Shown here piece by piece: positions 19,972 to 26,988 of a stretch of 39,405 nucleotides of DNA. The DNA is taken from contig CAIXQW010000194.1 of NCBI GenBank assembly GCA_903921675.1, forward strand, positions 1 to 39,405, written 5' to 3'. This stretch comes from an uncultured bacterium. Lineage in GTDB: Bacteria; Bacteroidota; Bacteroidia; Chitinophagales; Chitinophagaceae. How positions within the stretch are numbered: position 1 is the stretch's first letter; each line of letters begins with the position of its first letter. The position numbers and the translations under genes are program-made. The notes under the pieces are model-generated. The model was not told the DNA's origin and ran no database searches. It saw nothing but the letters and a program-made list of their open reading frames with translations.

Positions 19972-21048
19972 ATGACTATAGAGCAACTGAAAGAATTACG
20001 AGATAGAGAATCTGCCCTGCGCAGTTATTTGGCAATAGACGAAAGACTAGAAAAAATAGCCAACGACAAAGCATTGAGTGTAAGCGATGGTTTTTGGGAT
20101 GATAATAAACGCGCTACAGAAATTATTAAAGAAATTAATAAGAATGAATATTGGGTAAAATTGTATCAGCAAACCAAAGATGCAATTGATGATTTTGCAA
20201 TACTATTTGAATGTTGGAAAGATGGAGATAGCACAGAAGAAGAAACCAAATTGGCTTTTGATAAATGCAAAGAAGCCATAGAAACATGCGAATTTAAAAG
20301 CACACTCAATCAGCCCGAAGATGAGATGCATGCCGTAATGGTAATTAATAGTGGCGCAGGTGGCACAGAAAGCCAAGATTGGGCAGAGATGCTACTACGC
20401 ATGTACAAAATGTATGGCGATAAGCAAGGCTGGAAAGTAAGCGAAATAGATATTCAGTGGGGAGATGGCGCAGGCATTAAACAGGCTACACTAGAGTTTG
20501 AAGGCGAGTATAGCTATGGCTTATTAAAGGCAGAAAGTGGTGTGCACCGCCTAGTGCGCATTAGCCCATTTGATAGCAATGCGCGCAGGCATACTAGCTT
20601 TGCCAGTGTGTTTGTATACCCGCTAATAGATAATAGTATAGAAATAGAAGTAAACCCCGCTGACTGCGATTGGGATTTTTTCCGAAGTGGTGGTAGTGGT
20701 GGCCAAAATGTAAATAAAGTAGAAACCGCAGTGCGCCTAAAGCATAAGCCTAGTGGCATTATTGTAGAGTGCCAACAAGCCCGCACCCAAGGCGAAAACC
20801 GCGAGAAAGCCATGGCAATGCTAAAAAGCCAATTGTACGAATTGGAAATGCAAAAGCAACAAAGCCTAAAAGACGATGCCAATAGCAGTAAGAAAAAAAT
20901 TGAATGGGGCAGCCAAATACGCAGCTACGTTTTTCATCCATACAAAATGATAAAAGACCACCGCACCGATTACGAAGTAGGTAATGTAGGACCTGTGATG
21001 GATGGCGAGTTAGATGGATTTATTAAGGCGTATTTGATGGCGAATTAG
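19972..21048 (+). CDS. prfB: Peptide chain release factor 2
   Basis: RF2, 358 residues, releases completed chains at UGA and UAA stop codons on the ribosome. The SPF anticodon-like tripeptide (198-200, in VRISPFDSN) separates it from RF1, and the catalytic GGQ is at 243-245. The reading frame is continuous from ATG. At the place where many RF2 genes carry an in-frame TGA and the programmed +1 frameshift (after LRxYL), this gene reads LRSYLAIDE with no TGA. Autoregulation by frameshifting is therefore absent. The start follows a promoter element by 8 nt. The upstream heptamer array separates it from the NRPS gene. Confidence 0.96.
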
Positions 21049-26392: not shown

Positions 26393-26605
26393 ATGCAAAC
26401 AGTAACAATAGATATTATTAATAATAAAGCGCTAAAACTTTTACAAGATTTAGAGTTGATGCAATTAATAAGATTACATAAGAATAGAACAATTTCTAGC
26501 ACACAGCCCAATGAATGGACTAATAAATATAAAGGAGCTATGAGCAAGCAAGCTATCACTGATATCGACAACCAATTGAATGAACTACGTAACGAATGTG
26601 AATAA
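26393..26605 (+). CDS. Antitoxin of a VapBC-type pair
   Basis: A 70-residue protein whose sequence (MQTVTIDIINNKALKLLQDLE, then NEWTNKYKGAMSKQ and ITDIDNQLNELRNE) matches the small antitoxins found directly before PIN-domain toxins in Bacteroidota. The N-terminal strand and helix would form the dimer/DNA-binding part, and the acidic C-terminal helix would wrap the toxin. Its TAA stop overlaps the presumed ATA start of the toxin in ATAA. Normally this overlap would be ATGA, so the toxin was once translationally coupled. Confidence 0.8.
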   Translation: MQTVTIDIINNKALKLLQDLELMQLIRLHKNRTISSTQPNEWTNKYKGAMSKQAITDIDNQLNELRNECE

Positions 26606-26988
26606 ATTACCTTTGGGATACTAATACTGCTATTTATTTTCTGCAACAGCAGTTTCCAATTAATGCTGAGAAATATATTGATAGTATTTTACAAACTAAT
26701 ATACCTGTAATTTCTGCAATTACAGAAATAGAATTACTATGTTGGAAGACAGCTTCTGAAAATGATTTAAAAGTTTTAAATAATTTTATTCAAGATGCAA
26801 CGGTAATAGAGTTAGAGCAAGAAATAAAATCTAAAACTGCAGAAATCCGCAAGGCAAATAAAATAAAATTACCTGATTCTATTATTGCTGCTACAGCAAT
26901 CGTTTACAATCTTACAATAATTACAAGAAACACCGCTGATTTCAAAAATATTGATGGATTAATAACTATAAACCCCTTTGAGATGTAA
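26602..26988 (+). CDS. PIN-domain toxin (VapC-like) with ATA in place of the start codon
   Basis: This 128-codon frame is missing from the ORF track because it has no ATG, GTG or TTG near its start. It translates as a complete PIN-domain ribonuclease: xNYLWDTNTAIYFL at the N-terminus (D6), SAITEIELL (E42/E44), LPDSIIAATA (D92) and TRNTADF (D113), ending NPFEM. All acidic active-site positions are kept and no frameshift is present. The first codon expected from the family is ATA at 26602. A single G-to-A change would turn ATGA into ATAA, which keeps the antitoxin stop (TGA to TAA) and removes the toxin start. It may be silent, poorly expressed from ATA, or started by read-through coupling. Confidence 0.75.
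   Translation: MNYLWDTNTAIYFLQQQFPINAEKYIDSILQTNIPVISAITEIELLCWKTASENDLKVLNNFIQDATVIELEQEIKSKTAEIRKANKIKLPDSIIAATAIVYNLTIITRNTADFKNIDGLITINPFEM

Follow-up and report, generated by a model that had tools for sequence, protein, structure and literature searches.

The window, by which we mean the whole stretch of 39,405 nucleotides analyzed, comes from an uncultured bacterium of the Chitinophagaceae and carries two overlapping genes, a small antitoxin gene and the body of a VapC-like PIN toxin (Table 1). The toxin frame is open from 26602 to 26985 and closed by a stop at 26986-26988; 128 open codons would arise by chance with a probability of about 1e-5 at its own composition. The toxin body matches Pfam PF01850 (PIN, 7.3e-12), and its profile also matches solved VapC chains. 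An AlphaFold2 model reached a pLDDT of 95.3, and the top PDB matches found with it by Foldseek were all VapC proteins (Shigella, Rickettsia, Salmonella, Klebsiella; TM about 0.8). Among 40 toxin homologues D6, D92, and D113 were invariant and E44 nearly so. Judged from profile, alignment and model, the frame is real and encodes a predicted VapC-type PIN toxin, which upholds the original prediction of a complete PIN frame with four acidic positions. The toxin scored 44.9 bits with the NCBIfam tRNA(fMet)-specific VapC equivalogs, for which the curated cut-off is 140.

Table 1. Features of the toxin-antitoxin locus in the window.
Feature	Position	Strand	Basis
Antitoxin gene, 70 aa	26393..26605	+	ORF; nearly all close toxin homologues are preceded by a homologue of it
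ATG, ancestral toxin start codon by comparison, overlapping antitoxin codons Glu-(Trp>Cys)	26596..26598	+	Comparison with relatives
TGT (Cys), antitoxin frame	26597..26599	+	TGG (Trp) in 30/30 relatives
TGA, nonsense at toxin codon 2	26599..26601	+	GGA in 28/30 relatives
ATA, ordinary third toxin codon (Ile); at most a weak reinitiation start	26602..26604	+	ATA in 19/30 relatives
VapC-like PIN toxin body, 128 codons + stop; predicted active-site residues D6, E44, D92, D113 intact	26602..26988	+	Sequence, profile, homologue alignment, model

The toxin frame is missing from the ORF list, no ATG, GTG, or TTG start being usable by the ORF lister, as had been foreseen for standard callers. What it offers for expression is an ATG followed at once by TGA, with ATA as the sole alternative start. 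An internal ATG, GTG, or TTG start within the body was rejected, as none in the ORF list retains D6.

A complete antitoxin homologue lies directly upstream in 28 of 30 close toxin homologues, which is the gene order of VapBC. When family assignment was attempted, the antitoxin gave zero matches in Pfam, NCBIfam, and PDB chains. Its alignment (A2) shows the pattern M-x-T-[VI]-T-[IV]-D-I-[IL]-N ... YKGAM ... LRNEWE, which is widespread in Bacteroidota and without a Pfam, NCBIfam, or PDB entry. The gene ends in the window with the stop TAA at 26603-26605.

The Toxin Start Lies within the Antitoxin Gene

Relatives were drawn from genome collections and brought into one orientation, with the WDTN motif as anchor. 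The close set comprised 30 sequences with identities from about 55% upward; the junction was also compared in about 80 distant relatives. In nearly all of them an in-frame ATG or GTG within the Glu-Trp codons of the antitoxin (gA ATG G) precedes the site of ATA 26602 by two codons and serves as the toxin start. Such a Glu-Trp overlap start was present in 83 of 111 loci, and the antitoxin-toxin overlap in relatives is 10 bases long, ATGGGAATAA. In the close set, the site of 26596 reads ATG in 26, TTG in 2, GTG in 1, and CTG in 1; the next codon is GGA in 28, GAA in 1, and GTC in 1; and the site of the ATA in the window is ATA in 19, ATG in 6, GTA in 3, CTA in 1, and TTA in 1.

ATA was thus not found as a conserved start, relatives having the in-frame ATG or GTG upstream. 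Because of this upstream ATG, and because ATA is the commonest third codon, ATA 26602 is, by this comparison, an inherited internal Ile codon and the A at 26604 the family norm rather than a mutation. It had been expected instead that the toxin would begin at this ATA, after loss of a G at 26604. This is contradicted by the close relatives that share the A (19/30), whose toxins start at the upstream ATG or GTG. The in-frame ATG at 26596-26598 had been overlooked because the TGA stop comes directly after it.

An ATGA-type overlap occurs in a minority of loci; in L053, L005, and L114 it supplies the sole ATG start, in L055, L040, and L109 a second ATG. In the first three another residue stands in place of the antitoxin Glu, and the ATG of the ATGA overlap is apparently the toxin start, so that the start site would have moved by two codons within the clade. 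These three loci lack ATG or GTG at the usual overlap site and nevertheless retain the antitoxin Trp, so the conserved Trp probably matters to the antitoxin itself. Relatives on plasmids were all below 60% identity, hence no near-identical junction is found among them. A distant VapC relative (L080, G723:C46, locus 1501-1878; 44%) has an intact body, ATA at the equivalent place and an antitoxin ending in RNSW*. Its frame is open back only to codon -8, with no in-frame upstream ATG, GTG, or TTG; it possibly has a real ATA start, or else its start was lost through a one-base indel.

A Single Base Probably Stops the Toxin and Alters the Antitoxin

The junction in the window reads ATG TGA ATA AAT TAC, that is, a start, a stop and then the toxin body. 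At base 26599, which is known from one assembly and may be an assembly error, the window differs from each of the 30 relatives, and this one base both makes toxin codon 2 a stop codon and turns the antitoxin Trp into Cys. The antitoxin C-terminus accordingly reads LRNECE* in the window and LRNEWE* in relatives. The change at the junction had been described as harmless to the antitoxin. Since the Trp codon is TGG in all 30 relatives of at least 55% identity, the exchange caused by the base that is actually unique would not obviously be harmless.

UGA is expected to terminate where RF2 is present. As the window encodes prfB (RF2; 19990-21039) and no selA was detected in the genome (92% complete, so that absence is no proof), UGA at toxin codon 2 should act as a stop, and recoding was rejected on the same grounds.

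Selection on the Toxin Body

A codon model was fitted to 24 toxin sequences with their tree. Omega was 0.101 on the window branch vs 0.108 in the background and omega=1 was rejected on the window branch (2dlnL 12.5); as this branch is long and its synonymous sites are close to saturation, the test gives bounds and no date. When the window branch was split into selected and neutral parts, the best neutral length was zero and the tolerated maximum about 20 substitutions. Of random changes, about 4.6% would create a stop. Relaxed selection was seen in neither analysis. Purifying selection on the body has persisted, and the lesion is therefore recent, or an assembly error, or bypassed, the body still being used via weak reinitiation. 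Persisting purifying selection is also the pattern of a gene still expressed at a low level, and in this respect it counts against a dead toxin.

Toxin Loss across the Clade

The toxin is broken by other lesions, each at a different place, in 11 of the 30 close relatives, seven by frameshift (L108, L039, L110, L109, L040, L107, L057) and four by nonsense codons (L036, L035, L005, L106); several of these are draft or metagenome assemblies, and errors of assembly may account for some of the breaks. Disruption of the antitoxin is confined to L110 and L057, whose toxins are broken too, and none of the 30 loci has a lost antitoxin beside an intact toxin. Were first hits distributed according to length alone, the probability of ten toxin-only breaks would be about 0.013. 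Loss of the toxin before the antitoxin is the decay order expected for a toxin-antitoxin pair. The proportion of broken toxins is seemingly higher in this clade than in distant members, with ascertainment bias possible. Literature searches on toxin pseudogenes in VapBC turned up general papers only.

Discussion

Taking the evidence together, we consider it likely that the locus is a chromosomal type II VapBC-like pair of Bacteroidota in ordinary toxin-first decay, stopped at toxin codon 2. A change at 26599, in the lineage of the window or in its assembly, would make this codon UGA; ribosomes starting at AUG 26596 would stop after one codon, and the toxin is probably off, its full-length product not being made. 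The same base would exchange the invariant Trp of the antitoxin for Cys, and the need for the antitoxin may be relaxed. The pair would be in an early stage of decay, and we propose that the lesion is too recent for the remainder of the toxin frame to have degenerated. The idea of a one-step disarming in the overlap thus survives, in that a single base with the active site left intact fits the data, with 26599 in place of 26604.

A sequencing or assembly error, or a minority strain variant, at 26599 would leave the pair intact in the population. The stop and the loss of the Trp are both explained by one unique base, which lies on a single contig of a 306-contig assembly, and the remaining toxin shows no sign of relaxation. 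However, there is no positive sign of poor sequence nearby and toxin breakage is common in the clade, and we regard this explanation as unlikely.

We attach a similarly low probability to the synthesis of some toxin, minus two residues, by termination-reinitiation at AUA 26602, after UGA 26599-26601 or the antitoxin UAA 26603-26605. Such low-level translation would agree with the purifying selection on the body and with the overlap of ATA and the antitoxin stop. The toxin can probably do without its two N-terminal residues, since L053, L005, and L114 start at the same position with ATG. In addition, AUA starts in S. aureus reach about 10-30% of AUG (PMC13009471). These starts, however, follow extended Shine-Dalgarno motifs, whereas no Shine-Dalgarno-like stretch precedes the ATA in the window. 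This codon was inherited as an internal Ile codon and not selected as a start, and no close relative depends on it, the distant L080 being the one possible exception. Low-level translation from ATA, as raised in the original prediction, is possible but found no positive support.

Destruction of an ancestral ATG at 26602 by G to A at 26604 is very improbable. An ATG stands there, in an ATGA-type overlap, in 6 of 30 relatives, but the nearest ones (L048, L108, L039, L110, L033, L112, L049) all have ATA and start at the ATG two codons upstream, and the window branches among ATA-bearing sequences in the toxin tree. The comparison of junctions in relatives, suggested as a check on the lost G, thus pointed to 26599. 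Readthrough of UGA codon 2, by recoding or selenocysteine, has the intact body and nothing else in its favor and can be practically dismissed, given prfB, the undetected selA and an ordinary Gly codon in relatives.

If a stop at codon 2 interrupts the toxin, the annotation is to be corrected accordingly, as its start is not missing. Beyond this locus, the comparison points to a widespread VapBC architecture of Bacteroidota in which the toxin start is made from the conserved Glu-Trp codons of the antitoxin, and a single mutation can therefore affect both genes. By computation, of the 9 single changes by which the antitoxin Trp can be lost, 7 also abolish the toxin start or create a stop at toxin codon 2. 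Trp has a single codon and the toxin start (ATG G) incorporates it, hence most Trp losses would disarm the toxin too. One idea, which we advance as doubtful, is that the overlap is a genetic fail-safe through which the antitoxin cannot easily lose its Trp while the toxin is armed, the window being a natural instance. The effect would follow from the genetic code and the conserved overlap, and selection might conceivably maintain the overlap for such protection. Whether a start placed in the antitoxin gene protects against antitoxin-first loss is a testable question.

The AUA in the window could in principle initiate at a low level like those of ccpN, citZ, and infC in S. aureus (PMC13009471), from which it differs as an inherited internal codon lacking Shine-Dalgarno support. 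With known type II VapBC systems (VapC of Shigella and Salmonella, VapBC2 of Rickettsia, and 7by2/7by3 of Klebsiella) the locus shares the PIN fold (TM about 0.8), the acidic residues, a small upstream antitoxin and the gene overlap. It differs from them in an antitoxin unlike any Pfam or NCBIfam model or solved chain, and in a toxin start followed by a stop. Orphan antitoxins are common elsewhere, and these or degraded toxin-antitoxin pairs are described in Klebsiella (PMC7192599) and E. coli (PMC10790755). As in those cases, the antitoxin in the window is kept and the toxin would be non-functional; unlike them, the toxin body is complete and a single lesion, placed in the gene overlap, also affects the antitoxin.
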